From assembly GCA_016929465.1 (NCBI GenBank), contig JAFGIT010000079.1:1-7990 (forward strand): a stretch of DNA of 7,990 nt, given 5' to 3'. The translations under genes were made by a program, and so were the position numbers. Shown in pieces: positions 2,168-7,969 of this stretch. The first letter of the stretch is position 1, and every line of letters starts with the position of its first letter. Below the pieces are notes generated by a model. That model was not told the DNA's origin, searched no databases, and saw only the letters and a list, made by a program, of their open reading frames with translations. Origin of the DNA: JAFGIT01 sp016929465 [NCBI: Candidatus Coatesbacteria bacterium] (GTDB lineage: Bacteria; B130-G9).

Positions 2168-2542
2168 TCAAAGCATCACGATTCGGACTATTGTGTCTGC
2201 CTCCTTGGGCGAGATTAGAATGAACTCGAGAGCAAAGCGGAGCTCATTCGGGGTGGGCCTTTCGAGACGAACGACCCGGGCGAGCAGGCGCGTTACAACC
2301 ACTGAGCCCGAACTCGGAATGGAGACGTCGATCAATGTGCCAACGCTAATTAGGTCGGTCGTCGGACTTTTGCGGGTCGCCATTAGGAGCATTCCGCCGC
2401 CGCTCACGTTGACCGTCTCGACGGGTATCACTCTTTCGTCGGGAAGCTCGGAGCCGTCGGGGAGCGCAAAGAGCTCGGCGCTGACGGCGATTGCCATCTC
2501 CCTTCTGAAGTAGCTGCGATGTTGCTCGAAGTCGGTGTGCAT
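2168..2542 (-). CDS. PilZ-domain c-di-GMP-binding protein
   Basis: A small single-domain protein of 124 residues. Both PilZ signature motifs are visible: RxxxR as RSYFR (residues 9-13) and the (D/N)xSxxG motif as NVSGGG (residues 45-50), followed by the alternating hydrophobic strands of the PilZ beta-barrel. In this family these motifs contact cyclic di-GMP, so the protein is a likely cytoplasmic c-di-GMP receptor, perhaps acting on motility or surface structures. The ATG at 2542 is preferred because it lies 1 nt after the stop of the upstream FapA-like gene, implying translational coupling, and places RxxxR near the N-terminus as is common in stand-alone PilZ proteins. The frame stays open to an ATG at 2584, which would add 14 residues and overlap the upstream gene by 41 nt; neither start has a strong Shine-Dalgarno. 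About 15-20 residues between the two motifs seem slightly long. The output partner cannot be read from sequence. Confidence 0.85.
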   Translation of the reverse strand: MHTDFEQHRSYFRREMAIAVSAELFALPDGSELPDERVIPVETVNVSGGGMLLMATRKSPTTDLISVGTLIDVSIPSSGSVVVTRLLARVVRLERPTPNELRFALEFILISPKEADTIVRIVML

Positions 2543-2543
2543 A

Positions 2544-3623
2544 CTATCTGTCACGCCCCGGCCCCCCATCGGCAGCATTACCATTAAACGGAACCATCTT
2601 TATTTCTCCATTTGTCAGTCGAAACACGGTGCCTCCCATGTCCTCGCCAATCTCCACTTCCTTAAATCCTATCGTGACCTTGACCCCCTCGTGGACCATC
2701 TCCTTGGCCCTGAGCTCCGCAGCAGCATTGAGTTCGGGGCAGCTCAGCCTCCTGATATTCTCCTCGAACAGGTCCACGATGAATTTGTTGGCCACGTAGA
2801 GATGATAGAGCTGCAGGGCCAGGTTCTGGATTTCCGCATCCTTGCTCTCTGCGTGCATGGGTGAGGGCAAGCGACCCGCGATCTCCGCGACGATGACTCG
2901 GAGCTCCTCATTGGTTTCCAGGGCCGAGCCCGCTCCCATGCTCTCCAGGAATTCTTGTGTCACGGGAGCTTTCACCAGGAAGGCCGCCCTCTCTGAGAGA
3001 GATGAGTCGATTCCAGACATGCCATTGTCGAGAAGATAGGCTGCATTCTGTGCCGAAGCGCGTCCCAATTTCTCTGCAAGCGAGAGTCGTGAACGGGATT
3101 CGAGGTGGTCCCTGCGTATCCGCGGGGGAAGCCCGAGCATTACGACCGTGCTCTCAACTATCCTTGCTATGGCTCCACCCTTACTTGTGTCTCGAACATC
3201 GGCACCTTTGTGGCCCACACGCGAGGCGAACACGCTGCCACCAGCCATCAGGATACCTCCGACCAGCACACCCTCTCCCGCGATCAGGACATCTTCGTCC
3301 GTCAGGAGAGTGCTATTCATCGCATAGGAGCGGATTACGATGCCCGCCTTCGATTCCAGCGTGGCCTGGTTCGCATACCCAATCGAGATCTTGCCGCCGG
3401 CCTGGATTTTGCCTTTGCCCCTACCAGCGATACCACACCCGACTTCGACGTGGCCACCGGCGGCTATGGTGCTTGTCTCGACCACGCCTTGAACTTTCAC
3501 AGAGCCCTTCGCTTTGACGGTAAGGCCAGACCGAACATCTCCCTTTACGACGATGTCACCGGCTCCCTCAATATCGCCGGTCCTGATATCCACATCCCCA
3601 TCGATCAGCAAGGGAGCATCCAT
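2544..3623 (-). CDS. FapA-like DUF342 beta-helix protein, short N-terminus
   Basis: A protein of 359 residues with the architecture of the DUF342/FapA family. Residues 1 to about 145 are short repeated strands rich in G and V, with phrases such as GDVRSGLTVKAKG, GGHVEVGCGIAG and LVGGILMAGGSV, the right-handed beta-helix pattern of the family. Residues about 150-310 are mainly helical and charged. The last 50 residues form strands (GVKVTIGFKEVEIG, then FRLTNGEIKMVP) typical of the FapA C-terminus. Family members (FapA in Vibrio) have been linked to flagellar assembly and polar localisation. Most are longer, with an N-terminal domain ahead of the helix; here the start falls directly at the beta-helix. 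The start is well supported by a GAGGA 8 nt upstream, and the preceding gene ends only 11 bp away, so the missing domain is not simply a misplaced start. The flagellar operon on the other side of the divergent region is consistent with a motility role, but the gene symbol is withheld because of the different architecture. Confidence 0.8.
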   Translation of the reverse strand: MDAPLLIDGDVDIRTGDIEGAGDIVVKGDVRSGLTVKAKGSVKVQGVVETSTIAAGGHVEVGCGIAGRGKGKIQAGGKISIGYANQATLESKAGIVIRSYAMNSTLLTDEDVLIAGEGVLVGGILMAGGSVFASRVGHKGADVRDTSKGGAIARIVESTVVMLGLPPRIRRDHLESRSRLSLAEKLGRASAQNAAYLLDNGMSGIDSSLSERAAFLVKAPVTQEFLESMGAGSALETNEELRVIVAEIAGRLPSPMHAESKDAEIQNLALQLYHLYVANKFIVDLFEENIRRLSCPELNAAAELRAKEMVHEGVKVTIGFKEVEIGEDMGGTVFRLTNGEIKMVPFNGNAADGGPGRDR

Positions 3624-3916: not shown

Positions 3917-5254
3917 TTATATGCTCAGCTTGTTAAGTACAAGCCCCGTTACCAACTTCGGATAGAAGTCGGTCGACTTCTGAGGCATCCGAATGCCGGC
4001 CGACGCAACGTCCCGCACCTGCCAGGTCTTGGTAGGATTCAGAAGGAAGAACGCCTGAGCATCGCCTTTCTGAACTGCATCGACACCGGGTTCGACCTCG
4101 CGCAGATATTCCACATTCCTCTCCTCGGTCAAATCCTCTTTGGTGATCCCGAGCATATTTTCGAGTATCAGAGTGTGCAGGATTACGACATCGAGGCGCT
4201 TGAAGGCCTCGCAATCCGACTCGGTGATCAGATTGTCGAGCTTCGATTCGTCCTTGAGCTTCGCGAGCACGAACTGGTTCTGTCCGGCGAGGACCATGCC
4301 AACTAAATGGCTGCTTTCTGGGGCGGAGTGCATTATCTCGAGCATCTTCTTTTGTGCAGTTTCTCTGGAATTCGAGAATGGGAATACTTCGAGCTCGAAT
4401 AGGTCTTTCAGGCTGTGCATCACGGCGGTGGGATCGAATTCCTTCACATTGCGGACGAGCCGGTGTGTCGGAAGTACAAGAAGCCCGGGATCGTCGAAGC
4501 TCACAAAGGTAATCATGCGGTTCTCGATCGATTCGAAATCGCTGGTTGGTGCGACCTTGCCGCGCATCTCATCCCGATATGCAAGTGCAGTCTCGTAACG
4601 GTGGTGGCCATCGGCTATGAAGACCTGCTTGTCGAGCATCAGGTTTTGCAGATTCGATATTATATTCGCATCCGTGACAGCCCAGATCTTGTGGGAGTCG
4701 TTGAAGCGGTCCTTTGCGATCTCGGGAGATCTGGCTGCTCTTGCCTGGTCGAGAAGTGTGTTCACGCTGCCCTCTGGATCGGGATATAGCATGAATATCT
4801 GGCCGAACTGAGCCCTTGTTGCACGCATCAGATTCAATCTGTCGGCCTTAGGGCCGGCGAGCGTCCGCTCATGGGGTTTTACGCCGCCTTCCTCATAAGA
4901 GAGCAGACGAAATAGCGCAACGAATCCCTTCCTGGTCTTCGTATAGCCCTCTCCGGGGACGACATATTCCTGGTCATATACATAAATGCACGGCGCAGCG
5001 TCGCGCTTCAGGACACCCTCTCCGATCCAGGTGTTCAGATAGTCGGATGCACGTGTGTATTGGTTGTCGGTCGCGACGTCATTCGGATAGGTCCTGCCTT
5101 TGATTATCCTGACTATGTTATGCGGATCCTTCTCGTGGTAGTACTCCTGGAGATCGGGGCCAATTTTGTCGTACGGGTCACTTACGACATTGTCGAGGCT
5201 GCCCACTCGACCAACGTCATACCTGAAGCCCCTGAAGGGGAAAATGTGCGCCAT
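3917..5254 (-). CDS. DUF1015 family protein
   Basis: A full-length 445-residue protein of the DUF1015 family (PF06245), close to the usual family size. Hallmarks seen in order are: an N-terminal FPFRGFRYD followed by VSDPYDKI (residues 24-31); PHERTL (127-132); the diagnostic ADGHHRYETAL (214-224), rich in candidate catalytic or metal-binding residues D215, H217, H218, R219 and E221; and LPTHRLVRN (261-269). There is no signal peptide or membrane segment, so it is cytoplasmic. The cellular role is not established by the sequence. I recall a proposed free-serine kinase activity in this family but cannot confirm it here, so no enzyme name is assigned. The start is secure: GGAGG lies 6 nt before the ATG. 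It is the first gene of the leftward unit, divergent from the flagellar operon, and has no obvious functional connection to motility. It may simply be a housekeeping gene that leads the transcript. Confidence 0.92.
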   Translation of the reverse strand: MAHIFPFRGFRYDVGRVGSLDNVVSDPYDKIGPDLQEYYHEKDPHNIVRIIKGRTYPNDVATDNQYTRASDYLNTWIGEGVLKRDAAPCIYVYDQEYVVPGEGYTKTRKGFVALFRLLSYEEGGVKPHERTLAGPKADRLNLMRATRAQFGQIFMLYPDPEGSVNTLLDQARAARSPEIAKDRFNDSHKIWAVTDANIISNLQNLMLDKQVFIADGHHRYETALAYRDEMRGKVAPTSDFESIENRMITFVSFDDPGLLVLPTHRLVRNVKEFDPTAVMHSLKDLFELEVFPFSNSRETAQKKMLEIMHSAPESSHLVGMVLAGQNQFVLAKLKDESKLDNLITESDCEAFKRLDVVILHTLILENMLGITKEDLTEERNVEYLREVEPGVDAVQKGDAQAFFLLNPTKTWQVRDVASAGIRMPQKSTDFYPKLVTGLVLNKLSI

Positions 5255-5571
5255 GCTGCTCCTCCACTAATCGCGAATTTCTTTTGATTCTTAGTCCATA
5301 GGCAGGCGCCCGTACTCCTTGGGAAAATATTTCCGCCCCAGGCCTCAACGGGCAAGCACAGCCTGAAGATGACTATATATCAGCGCTGCTTTCGTTATCA
5401 AGCGGGAGTTGAGGAGGCTTACTCCATCCACGGCTAGGAAATTCTTGCCGAAACCGGTCGCATTTAGCGCCCGGTCTCCCTCCACATCCATGTAGCCAGG
5501 TAGATCCCCGGGTCGGCTAAGACCGCTATGAGAGAAAGGCTGCGAAATTTCTCCGGTATTTTTGGATGGAT
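5255..5571. other. Divergent intergenic region
   Basis: This stretch separates the leftward DUF1015 unit from the rightward flagellar operon and must hold the promoter of the DUF1015 gene and any activator sites for the sigma-54 promoter. I could not identify a convincing sigma-70 -35/-10 pair for the leftward gene. A small dyad GGAAA-ATA-TTTCC lies at 5322-5334. A minus-strand frame of 48 codons (5491-5345) has no ribosome site and is not called. Sites for an enhancer-binding protein would be expected 80-200 bp upstream of the flagellar promoter, but none can be named from the sequence. Confidence 0.6.
5261..5265 (-). promoter_or_regulatory. Strong Shine-Dalgarno of the DUF1015 gene
   Basis: Read on the minus strand this is GGAGG with a 6-nt spacer to the ATG at 5254, the best ribosome site in the leftward block. 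It fixes the start of the first gene of that unit. Confidence 0.65.
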
Positions 5572-5587
5572 TGGCACGGTATCTGCT
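5572..5587 (+). promoter_or_regulatory. Sigma-54 (RpoN) promoter of the flgF-flgG-flgA operon
   Basis: TGGCACG (5572-5578), four bases GTAT, then CTGCT (5583-5587) match the consensus TGGCACG-N4-TTGCW closely. The invariant GG (-24) and GC (-12) are present with the exact 10-bp spacing. The only departure in the conserved core is C for the first T of the -12 element. Predicted transcription start is about 5598, giving a leader of about 42 nt before the flgF ATG at 5640. The orientation and position fit flagellar rod genes, which are RpoN-dependent in many Gram-negative bacteria and then need an NtrC-type activator. Confidence 0.8.
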
Positions 5588-5639
5588 TATATGCCGGCGG
5601 AAGGAAAGCAACACCAAATTATGGGAGCGATTAAAAGTC

Positions 5640-6389
5640 ATGATTAAGGGCCTATACGAGGCGGCATCGGGATTTCTGACCGAGGCACGAGCGCAGGAGA
5701 TAAGATCGAACAACCTGGCGAACGTGAATACAGTCGGCTACAAGAAGGATGTGCCCTTCTTCAAGCTTCTGGTCAAAGAGGGCGCCAAGGCAGGCGAGAC
5801 CGGTTCATACGACCCGCTAGCTCCTTCGAGTGTGGTTATGGGCGGCACCGCGACCGACTTCTCCCAGGGGCCTTTGAGACAGACTGGCAACTTACTGGAC
5901 CTGGCCCTGCAGGGCGAAGGTTTCTTCGCAGTCCGCATCGGCGATAGCGAAGGCTACACGAGGGCCGGGAATTTCAAGCTGGGCGAAAATGGGGAGCTCC
6001 TCGACCAGAACGGTCTGAGGGTTCTTGCCGCGCAGGGCGAGCTAAACGTCCCAGAGGGGGCCAACCTGGTGATAAACACCGACGGTGAGGTCTTCGCGGA
6101 CGGCGAGTCGATCGGCTCGATCAAACTAGTGGAGTTCGATGACCCCCGTCTCCTCGAGAAGGTCGGCTCCAACATCTGGGTTGCGAAGACCGATGAGGCC
6201 GTTCCAAGGGAGGCCAAAGAGGTCGAGCTCCACCAGGGATTCCTCGAGTCGTCCAATACCAGCATCATCGACGAGATGGTCTCCATGATCGACGGGATGA
6301 GGCGATACGAGTCCCATCAGAAGAACATACGGGCAATTCTCGAGGACACCGTGGCCCGCACAATCAACACACTTCCGAATCTGGGTTAG
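5640..6389 (+). CDS. flgF: Flagellar proximal rod protein FlgF
   Basis: A 249-residue rod protein of the flagellar basal body, exported by the flagellar type III apparatus and polymerised as the proximal rod. The N-terminus carries the rod-domain signature [13 protein letters not shown] (residues 24-36) preceded by the GLYEAASGF heptad helix. The middle holds the FlgE/F/G-like domain, including GEGFFAV and YTRAGNF. The C-terminus has QGFLESSNTSIIDEMVSMI followed by the closing helix (Flg_bbr_C). FlgF is preferred over FlgG because the paralogous, canonical FlgG follows directly and this protein has GYKKD with a shorter middle, as in FlgF. The frame is open upstream to 5562, but that ATG precedes the predicted transcription start (about 5598), has no ribosome site and would add a non-family extension, so the ATG at 5640 is used. 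A GGAG 12 nt upstream is a rather distant Shine-Dalgarno. Confidence 0.9.
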   Translation: MIKGLYEAASGFLTEARAQEIRSNNLANVNTVGYKKDVPFFKLLVKEGAKAGETGSYDPLAPSSVVMGGTATDFSQGPLRQTGNLLDLALQGEGFFAVRIGDSEGYTRAGNFKLGENGELLDQNGLRVLAAQGELNVPEGANLVINTDGEVFADGESIGSIKLVEFDDPRLLEKVGSNIWVAKTDEAVPREAKEVELHQGFLESSNTSIIDEMVSMIDGMRRYESHQKNIRAILEDTVARTINTLPNLG

Positions 6390-6440: not shown

Positions 6441-7226
6441 ATGATTAGAACACTTTGGACGTCTGCAACGGGTATGCAGGCTCAGCAACTTACGATTGAT
6501 ACGATTGCCAATAACCTCGCCAATGTCAATACGGGTGGTTTCAAGAAGTCGAGAGCGGAGTTTCAAGATCTCATGTACGAGACACTCCGCTCCCCCGGCG
6601 CTCCTATCGGTGGCTCGATCGTTCCGAGCGGCATCCAGATCGGTCATGGCGTAAGACCGGTTTCGACGCAACGGGAGTTCAGCACTGGTAGCCTCAAGAA
6701 CACCAATTCGCCGCTGGACATAGCGATAGAGGGTAACGGATTCTTCCAGGTAGTCTTGCCCAGCGGCGATATGGCTTACACGAGGGCCGGCTCGTTCCAT
6801 CTGGACAGCTCCGGCTCGATGGTGACTTCCGATGGCTACAGGATATCCCCGGACATCGTAATACCGAATGACGCGACCTCGATCTCCATCGAATCGGACG
6901 GGACGGTCTCGGTTCTTCAGCCGGGGCAGACCTCATCGACAGAGGTTGGGACGATCGAGCTTGCTCTGTTCTCCAATCCTGGAGGCCTGAGAGCTCTCGG
7001 TAGGAACCTCTTCCAGGAGACGGATTCATCGGGTGTCCCAACAACGGGGACTCCTGGCCAGGAGGGAAGAGGCGAGGTGGCACAGGGCTTCCTGGAGCTG
7101 TCGAACGTCTCGGTCGTGGACGAAATGGTCCAGATGATCATGACCCAGAGGGCATACGAGCTCAATGCGAAGTCAATTCAGTCCGCAGACCAGATGATGA
7201 GCCAAGCGAACAACCTAAAGAGATAA
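6441..7226 (+). CDS. flgG: Flagellar distal rod protein FlgG
   Basis: A 261-residue protein of the canonical FlgG length. It is the distal rod subunit that spans the periplasm inside the P and L rings and is secreted by the flagellar type III system. The N-terminus [16 protein letters not shown] and the signature [20 protein letters not shown] (residues 24-43) are nearly textbook FlgG. The FlgG-specific stretch after [12 protein letters not shown], with [10 protein letters not shown], follows, then GNGFFQV and [10 protein letters not shown] of the middle domain. The C-terminal polymerisation helix begins with [19 protein letters not shown] and ends in [22 protein letters not shown]. It lies 51 bp after flgF and 17 bp before flgA in the same orientation, so all three are expected to be co-transcribed from the sigma-54 promoter. 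No abnormality is seen. Confidence 0.97.
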
Positions 7227-7243
7227 AGATAGGTGTGGATGAG

Positions 7244-7969
7244 ATGTCTATTCATGAAATAACAGGCTGCTATCTGATAATAATACTACTGTCGCTTCTG
7301 ATTGTCGGTATCGTCGATGCCGCTACCATATCTGAAGGGCGGGTCGAGGCCCTCGTTCGGGAGGAGATCCTGAGCAGAACCGGTATCGACCATCGGGATA
7401 TCAATATCGATTTTATCCGCGTCCCTGAGATCAGCGTGCCGGGCAACAAATGCCAATTGAAGATTGAGCAACAGAACGCGCCGCGAGAGCTGGGGAGATT
7501 GTCGTTCGCCATAACCGCTATTGGTGAGGACCAGCAACGGAAATACTGGGTAACGGCAGATGTCTCCGCTCGCGTCATGGTCGTATGCGCAAACCAGGCC
7601 CTGAAGGCTCGTTCTGTTGTCGGGCCCGGCGACGTTGTTCTCAAGGAGCGCGAGATCGGCAGGAACGCCTCCAATGACCTCGTGACAGATGTCGATCTGG
7701 TGGTCGGAAAGATTCTCAAAAGGGGCGTCACCAAGGGCCGAATGATCACAAGCGACATACTAGTTGAGCCGTTCGCTGTCAAAAGACGGTCGGTTGTGCG
7801 ACTGGTCGCTCAGATCAAATCGCTCCGGGTGGTTACCCTCGGCGAAGCACTCAAGGATGGCCGTATTGGCGATGTCATACCGGTTAAGAATACGACCTCA
7901 AAGAGGACGGTGTATGGGACTGTCCAGGAAGACGGCACTGTCCTGGTCCTCCTGGGCGGCATCCGATAA
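7244..7969 (+). CDS. flgA: Flagellar P-ring assembly chaperone FlgA
   Basis: A 241-residue periplasmic protein that in Gram-negative bacteria helps FlgI assemble into the P ring around the rod. The N-terminus is a signal peptide: a hydrophobic stretch (about residues 9-24, rich in I and L) ending in VDA, with likely cleavage after A26. The mature part has a weakly conserved N-terminal domain, then the SAF-type domain (ANQALKARSVVGPGDVVLKERE) and the closing beta domain ending in GDVIPVKN, RTVYGTVQEDGTVLVLLGG, all standard FlgA features. The ATG at 7244 is chosen over the in-frame GTG at 7235 because AGGTG (7231-7235) lies 8 nt before the ATG but overlaps the GTG. Three residues differ between the two options. 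The chaperone implies that P and L rings exist, hence an outer membrane. The stop is followed closely by a possible next start at the right edge. Confidence 0.9.
   Translation: MSIHEITGCYLIIILLSLLIVGIVDAATISEGRVEALVREEILSRTGIDHRDINIDFIRVPEISVPGNKCQLKIEQQNAPRELGRLSFAITAIGEDQQRKYWVTADVSARVMVVCANQALKARSVVGPGDVVLKEREIGRNASNDLVTDVDLVVGKILKRGVTKGRMITSDILVEPFAVKRRSVVRLVAQIKSLRVVTLGEALKDGRIGDVIPVKNTTSKRTVYGTVQEDGTVLVLLGGIR

Follow-up and report, generated by a model that had tools for sequence, protein, structure and literature searches.

Probable sigma-54 control of the flgF operon

The flagellar rod gene flgF in the stretch of DNA analysed here (the window, 7,990 nucleotides, an entire contig, C202, of an 86%-complete assembly of 3.19 Mb in 423 contigs from a Candidatus Coatesbacteria bacterium) is very probably preceded by a sigma-54 promoter at 5572–5587, and we put at roughly 0.87 the probability of a model in which this promoter works together with conserved candidate activator-binding sequences located at −250 and −135 from it. 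Read directly from sequence were the sites, with the degree to which they are conserved and spaced alike, and the genes involved; binding, phosphorylation, looping, the start site, the order in time and the choice of activator are what we infer, the steps of action being modelled on the protein families (PMC3930126, PMC7064773). The features of the window are as follows.

3917 to 5254, minus strand: DUF1015 gene (PF06245), divergent from flgF and sharing its intergenic region
5322 to 5334, no strand assigned: UAS1, candidate distal enhancer-like palindrome GGAAAATATTTCC, located 250 bases upstream of the −24/−12 element
5372 to 5401, minus strand: putative divergent sigma-70-like promoter of the DUF1015 gene, TTGATA-N18-TATAGT (scan, 1 match against 0.6 expected)
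5437 to 5449, plus strand: UAS2, candidate proximal enhancer-like site GGAAATTCTTGCC, located 135 bases upstream of the −24/−12 element
5572 to 5587, plus strand: predicted sigma-54 −24/−12 promoter element TGGCACGGTATCTGCT (exact match)
5640 to 6389, plus strand: flgF, proximal rod protein (TIGR02490, 188 bits, cut-off 178.5)
6441 to 7226, plus strand: flgG, distal rod protein (TIGR02488, 371 bits, cut-off 252.75)
7235 to 7969, plus strand: flgA, P-ring chaperone (TIGR03170, 108.6 bits, cut-off 54.65)

The original prediction had read TGGCACG-N4-CTGCT at 5572–5587, and this is indeed the sole match in the window, on the plus strand, and one that arose in 0 of 200 dinucleotide shuffles; the invariant GG and GC are present with the correct spacing, ten bases apart. 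The distance of 53 bp to flgF given at that time is an offset, with 52 bases separating the site from the ATG at 5640, a start that is backed by the residues M-I-K-G in all four genomes of the family (the own genome, G000, and three relatives in the same family, G001, G002 and G003). The site agrees with the consensus TGGCACGNNNNTTGCW at 11 of 12 specified letters; the deviating C replaces the first T of TTGC and is usual in this genome, since 15 of its 18 exact matches to TGGCACGNNNNYTGCW read CTGC. Its first base lies at −68 from the flgF ATG in G000 and at −63, −68 and −69 in G001, G002 and G003, respectively. All 16 bases are identical in G000, G001 and G003, and the G002 site, TGGCACATAACATGCT, is weaker (10 of 12 letters). 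Ungapped identity to G000 amounts to 69–100% across the site and to 17–30%, about chance level, in the flanks (60 bases before, 40 after). This conserved place in four of four genomes, together with an encoded RpoN and sigma-54 activators (see below), supports the sigma-54 reading, from which a flgF transcript start near 5598 is predicted by standard −12 geometry. No sigma-70-like promoter for flgF was found on the plus strand when 5240–5660 was scanned; the sole match in this region is the divergent one on the minus strand, and a sigma-70 promoter for flgF was therefore rejected.

Exact matches to the sigma-54 pattern number 18 in the own genome against about 1.6 expected, a coarse figure derived from 5 matches in 20 Mb of order-3 Markov simulation with a model built from 399 kb of own DNA, and the excess is weaker with one mismatch allowed (77 matches, 53 in the reversed control). 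Among the relatives, exact matches and control stand at 8:0 in G001, 3:4 in G002 and 5:5 in G003; because the counts do not exceed the control in the latter two, the case in the relatives is that of conserved position and enhancer-like sites. Matches at 11 or 12 of 12 letters were counted 9 times in 452,374 strand-bases of 21 other contigs (about 0.02 per kb per strand), a background that includes contig C64 with one exact sigma-54 match. At distant loci (scanned with L066–L069 left out), the 300 bases upstream contained an 11/12 site in 4 of 22 cases (L044–L065) and in 1 of 34 named ones (L140–L173; Poribacteria, L144, at −64). Some of these matches may belong to flgG or be operon-internal, and we therefore draw no conclusion from them on spread outside the family.

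The identities of flgF, flgG and flgA as originally assigned hold, but the operon extends beyond these three genes: the window ends with its contig just past flgA, and in the three relatives the operon runs on to flgL, in the order flgF-G-A-H-I-J-M-N-K-L (by eye). In G002, flgI, flgM, flgK and flgL pass the NCBIfam cut-offs and flgJ and flgN those of Pfam, and flgH gives a match below cut-off only. Each of the four genomes has a similar DUF1015 gene oriented divergently to flgF (identified by eye in the relatives). Also located on the minus strand near the operon are PilZ and FapA (PF03961) genes (2168–3623), with a FapA-like neighbour in all four genomes and a PilZ-like one in G001 and G002 (by eye), and a 674-residue frame consisting almost entirely of TPR repeats (3–2024), cut by the contig end.

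Enhancer-like sites at flgF and other flagellar promoters

That this promoter class needs an enhancer-binding activator had been part of the original prediction, which included neither of the candidate sites at 5322–5334 and 5437–5449; the need is supported by these conserved upstream sites and by sigma-54 activator genes with GAFTGA. The own genome has two exact GGAAAWNWTTTCC places, each of them flagellar, and UAS1 is one of these; its GGAAA-N3-TTTCC is aligned in all four genomes with one letter changed in G003 (GGCAA for GGAAA). UAS2 (GGAAA-N3-TTGCC) fits the motif GGAAANNNTTKCC at 10 of 10 letters and has a counterpart at −138 in G001 and G003; in G002 just GGAAA is kept at this place and the score falls under the threshold. 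In the four-genome alignment of the flgF intergenic region the conserved blocks are UAS1, the divergent TTGATA-N18-TATAGT, UAS2, the sigma-54 element and a short segment that immediately precedes the start codon. The divergent sigma-70-like promoter sits between UAS1 and UAS2 with hexamers and spacing kept, and since UAS1 is just downstream of it, the flagellar activator might also affect the DUF1015 gene.

The palindrome was spotted first at flgF and flgB and was then found, exact, before flagellin 2 in all four genomes, 248 to 328 bases ahead of a sigma-54 site. Searched for exactly across four whole genomes, GGAAAWNWTTTCC occurs at nine places where about 1.2 are expected (2 matches in 20 Mb simulated), and eight of these are upstream of flagellar sigma-54 sites: three at flgF (G000, G001, G002), four at the flagellin and one at flgB (G002), the ninth being internal to an ORF in G002. 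Enrichment of the palindrome is slight once a mismatch is tolerated (53 places, 45 in the reversed control), and only the exact word is therefore specific; 7 of the 44 one-mismatch places are flagellar, namely the flgB pairs of three genomes and flgF of G003. The motif GGAAANNNTTKCC at 9 or 10 of 10 letters gave 24 matches in the 7,083 bases of 12 flagellar sigma-54 promoter regions, a count with some circularity in it, the K having been introduced into the motif once the promoters had been seen, and 18 matches in 267,687 bases of 21 other contigs, a background raised by the inclusion of four contigs chosen for a one-mismatch palindrome. At least two enhancer-like sites are present in 11 of the 12 regions and one in the twelfth. 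Around the 16 exact sigma-54 sites that are not flagellar in the own genome (9,696 bases) there are three GGAAANNNTTKCC matches of 9/10 and none of 10/10. The exact-palindrome search is the cleaner test of the two.

Measured from the start of the promoter element, the proximal site has a tight spacing, at −135, −138 and −138 before flgF in G000, G001 and G003, and at −135, −136, −135 and −148 (9 of 10 letters) before flagellin 2 in the four genomes. The flgB sites, at −113 to −115 and +140 to +143, straddle the promoter 253–258 bases apart, the downstream one lying inside what would be the transcribed leader. In the own genome the two (L099:899–911 and 1155–1167) are exact reverse complements, 256 bases apart, and the three relatives have a similar layout. 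Outside the family, GGAAAATTTTTCC at −222 in a locus of Deferribacteraceae (L141) was taken as chance, as it is inside the preceding ORF of an AT-rich locus (37% GC), where no sigma-54-like site reached a score of 8 out of 12.

RpoN and candidate activators

The own genome encodes RpoN (TIGR02395, 406 bits, cut-off 277) with all of the activator-interacting, core-binding and DNA-binding Pfam domains and an RpoN box that reads RRAVAKYRE, which excludes the refutation originally envisaged, a genome devoid of rpoN. The gene is located on C6, flanked by lptB-like and hpf-like genes (by eye). An NtrC-family activator, the other gene to be searched for, is represented by at least ten sigma-54 activators; the activator domain was detected at 14 places, nine of them strong and full-domain, three weak, and two at contig ends that could be the halves of a single gene. 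GAFTGA is exact in C205, C234 and C43 and present as variants in others, with C406 showing none within two changes. The candidate we favour is the following.

C205:5669 to 7084 (G000): response regulator with receiver, AAA+ (GAFTGA) and Fis-type helix-turn-helix domains

Picked out of at least ten candidates for its neighbourhood and its conservation, C205 is probably the flagellar activator. It adjoins a PAS histidine kinase free of strongly hydrophobic segments, and also a gene that encodes the N-terminal domain of a Maf flagellar glycosyltransferase (PF20157, 28.6 bits, cut-off 23.5; the PseD model gives 74 bits, below its cut-off of 670). This arrangement is kept in all four genomes (the Maf-like gene was searched in G000 and judged by eye in the others), and the kinase and receiver-AAA+-HTH regulator co-occur in G000 with FlhF-like and FlhG-like genes. 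The C205 orthologues are 69–77% identical, the next best match reaching about 40%, and each carries GAFTGA; the DNA-binding helix is near-invariant, with LG(I/V)TVRTLRNKL in the recognition helix region of all four. The acidic residues that we take to be usual in a phosphorylated receiver are kept as well. We infer that the pair acts on flagella. Family models do not settle its name: C205 scores 369 bits with FlgR and 438 with FlbD (cut-off 750 for both), and the kinase 80 with FlgS (cut-off 600), so that the pair may work like these proteins and is not filed as one. AtoC (442 bits), FlbD (438) and NtrC (433) score near-equally for C205, all below cut-off, and the family scan therefore cannot name the activator; a search of solved structures, which ranks generic NtrC-family chains over FlrC, is likewise undecisive. 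The kinase-regulator-Maf genes follow DnaK-like and zinc-ribbon TPR genes (L088:8362–9674; L186, L187, L188; by eye), and in G002 and G003 an extra DnaJ-like gene lies beside them (by eye).

A wider predicted flagellar regulon

Scanning the other flagellar operons, as had been proposed, revealed the same promoter class before the flgB operon and before one flagellin in all four genomes. The RpoN-dependent class is supported, but its description as one of rod genes was too narrow: by operon position it also spans the MS ring, the C-ring protein FliG, the export ATPase, the L and P rings, FlgM, FlgK, FlgL and a flagellin. The flgB operon reads flgB-flgC-fliE-fliF-fliG-fliH-fliI-fliJ and on (fliH by eye), and in G000 the genes from flgB to fliG are separated from their neighbours by 11–30 bases behind one sigma-54 promoter. 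Each genome has two flagellin genes besides flgL. Flagellin 2 has a sigma-54 site with enhancer-like sites, and flagellin 1 is preceded in all four genomes by a sigma-28-like TAAAG-N14-TYCGATAA, about 204–212 bases before its start, which agrees at 11–12 of 13 letters with the sigma-28 consensus TAAAG-N14/16-GCCGATAA. FliA scores over cut-off in G001 and G002, and in neither G000 (86% complete) nor G003 (83% complete). In the export cluster fliR-flhB-flhA-flhF-flhG-fliM no strong sigma-54-like site or palindrome was found in the stretches examined (that of G000 is cut upstream). The flhA gene of G000 is followed by an SRP54-GTPase FlhF-like gene and a ParA-like FlhG-like gene.

Proposed mechanism and alternative readings

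In the model that we propose, RpoN-RNA polymerase would sit closed at 5572–5587 until an NtrC-family activator binds and oligomerises at the GGAAANNNTTKCC sites 5322–5334 and 5437–5449, reaches the promoter via DNA looping and opens it by means of its GAFTGA loop and ATP. This activator would most likely be the C205 response regulator, phosphorylated by the neighbouring PAS histidine kinase, and it would also serve flgB-fliJ and flagellin 2, which together with the flgF operon could form a flagellar class of middle rank. In the relatives the flgF operon also encodes FlgM, which would restrain sigma-28, the putative sigma factor of flagellin 1, until its export.

The alternative that departs least from this model keeps the promoter and the enhancer-like sites as described and gives the part of activator to another sigma-54 activator (e.g., C13, C137 or C413), C205 doing something else. 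With at least ten activator genes to choose from, and with C205 about equally near to AtoC, FlbD and NtrC below all cut-offs, such a reading is unlikely without being far-fetched; against it stands the position of C205 beside the Maf-like gene and the PAS kinase, kept in four of four genomes, a comparison in which the neighbours of the other activators were judged by eye and the cross-relative part covered the C205 orthologues. More improbable is a reading of the GGAAANNNTTKCC sites as those of an ordinary repressor or activator, with a true sigma-54 activator that needs no DNA site. The FlgR of Helicobacter pylori lacks a DNA-binding domain and that of Campylobacter jejuni can dispense with its own (PMC3930126), and one flgB site, which starts 140–143 bases beyond the first base of the promoter element, is in an unusual place for an enhancer. 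However, C205 keeps a Fis-type DNA-binding domain that is near-invariant in four genomes, and the sites resemble the FlbD-type GGCA-N4-TGCC as given in PMC3333781.

A chance match at −24/−12, with flgF being read from a sigma-70 or sigma-28 promoter, we consider very improbable indeed. Good matches do occur at the background rate given above for the 21 other contigs, and the exact pattern is not above control in two relatives, but the site occupies the same place in all four genomes amid flanks of chance identity, the plus strand has no sigma-70-like site in 5240–5660, and the element recurs ahead of flgB and flagellin 2, again accompanied by enhancer-like sites of this kind. A chance origin of the flgF site was rejected on grounds of this conservation and of the enhancer-like sites.

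Comparison with known flagellar hierarchies

RpoN control of flagella has been worked out mainly in Proteobacteria and Campylobacterota, and such control of rod, hook and minor flagellin genes is already established elsewhere. What appears to be new here is a specific in-silico enhancer-like code in an uncultured and little-studied lineage, where four genomes yield a promoter, an enhancer-like pair, a regulon, an anti-sigma factor and a two-flagellin split from sequence alone. The enhancer word is rare enough to mark flagellar sigma-54 promoters genome-wide (eight of nine exact places). No account of motility control in Coatesbacteria was found in the literature searched (most subscription journals being outside its scope); surveys across phyla treat sigma-54 control including that of flagellar genes (PMC3162934, PMC12316311).

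Among the closest parallels is the middle flagellar class under FlgS-FlgR and RpoN in H. pylori and C. jejuni. There, as predicted here, RpoN serves rod and hook-associated genes and one flagellin (FlaB, corresponding to flagellin 2 here), the other flagellin (FlaA; here, putatively, flagellin 1) goes with sigma-28, and a kinase that is not membrane-bound is paired with an NtrC-type regulator (PMC3930126); the two-flagellin split thus parallels that of Campylobacter and Helicobacter. In contrast to these systems, the lineage studied here has conserved enhancer-like DNA sites and a regulator that keeps its DNA-binding domain, C205 and its kinase stay below the FlgR and FlgS cut-offs, and fliF and fliG are in the sigma-54 flgB operon. 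With FlrB-FlrC of Vibrio cholerae and FleS-FleR of Pseudomonas it shares a putatively flagellum-associated kinase with a response-regulator activator and FlhF-like and FlhG-like genes (PMC7064773, PMC3930126). The Pseudomonas genes under RpoN include those for rod, L ring, hook and hook-filament junction (PMC7064773, PMC3930126), and in these polar flagellates the MS ring and C ring are in a class earlier than that of rod and hook, whereas here fliF and fliG are behind the flgB sigma-54 promoter. Caulobacter FlbD and Desulfovibrio vulgaris DVU1063 are again sigma-54 flagellar activators, and their dyad GGCA-N4/5-TGCC is near the GGAAA-N3-TTGCC found here (PMC3333781); C205 scores high with the FlbD model, under its cut-off (438 against 750 bits). 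The half-site is GGAAA here and GGCA there, and the receivers of these proteins are called atypical (PMC3333781), whereas C205 keeps the usual acidic residues.

In polar flagellates a checkpoint has been described by which FliF and FliG are made before the kinase fires (PMC7064773). As fliF and fliG follow flgB behind a sigma-54 promoter here, the fit with this checkpoint model is poor, and their placement offers a way of testing the MS-ring checkpoint in a distant lineage. It is tempting, though doubtful, to go further and suppose that fliF and fliG themselves belong to the sigma-54 class and are expressed from the flgB promoter straddled by two activator sites. If this were true, a kinase that senses the finished MS ring-rotor-export complex ahead of the sigma-54 genes could not operate in this form here; either it is the export apparatus alone that would be sensed, or the class would activate itself by positive feedback, in which variant the downstream flgB site could be a brake or a loop anchor. 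An additional promoter before fliF would remove this supposition.

Other sigma-54 features of the genome

Of the 18 exact sigma-54 sites in the own genome, about 9 are followed by genes whose starts, judged by eye, resemble secretion signals, and in L010, L012, L021, L025 and L036 such sites lie 18–102 bases before the gene. Four of the secretion-type proteins were searched, giving two right-handed beta-helix proteins (L010, L025) and two without a Pfam family match; L012 and L021 share the same 16-base sigma-54 site and a similar start. The flagellar enhancer word was not found in the sigma-54 regions of L010, L012, L021 and L025.

The genome further encodes three giant sigma-54 activators of 1,741–1,828 amino acids (L086:9765–15251 on C234, L089:6133–11358 on C210 and L091:713–5977 on C43), which combine a Ser/Thr kinase domain (below cut-off in C43), AAA_16, TPR repeats and the sigma-54 AAA+ domain, with GAF in C234 and C210. 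Nothing relevant was found in the literature on kinase-fused sigma-54 activators. The contigs C210 and C234 also carry sigma-54 sites before genes of secreted-type proteins.
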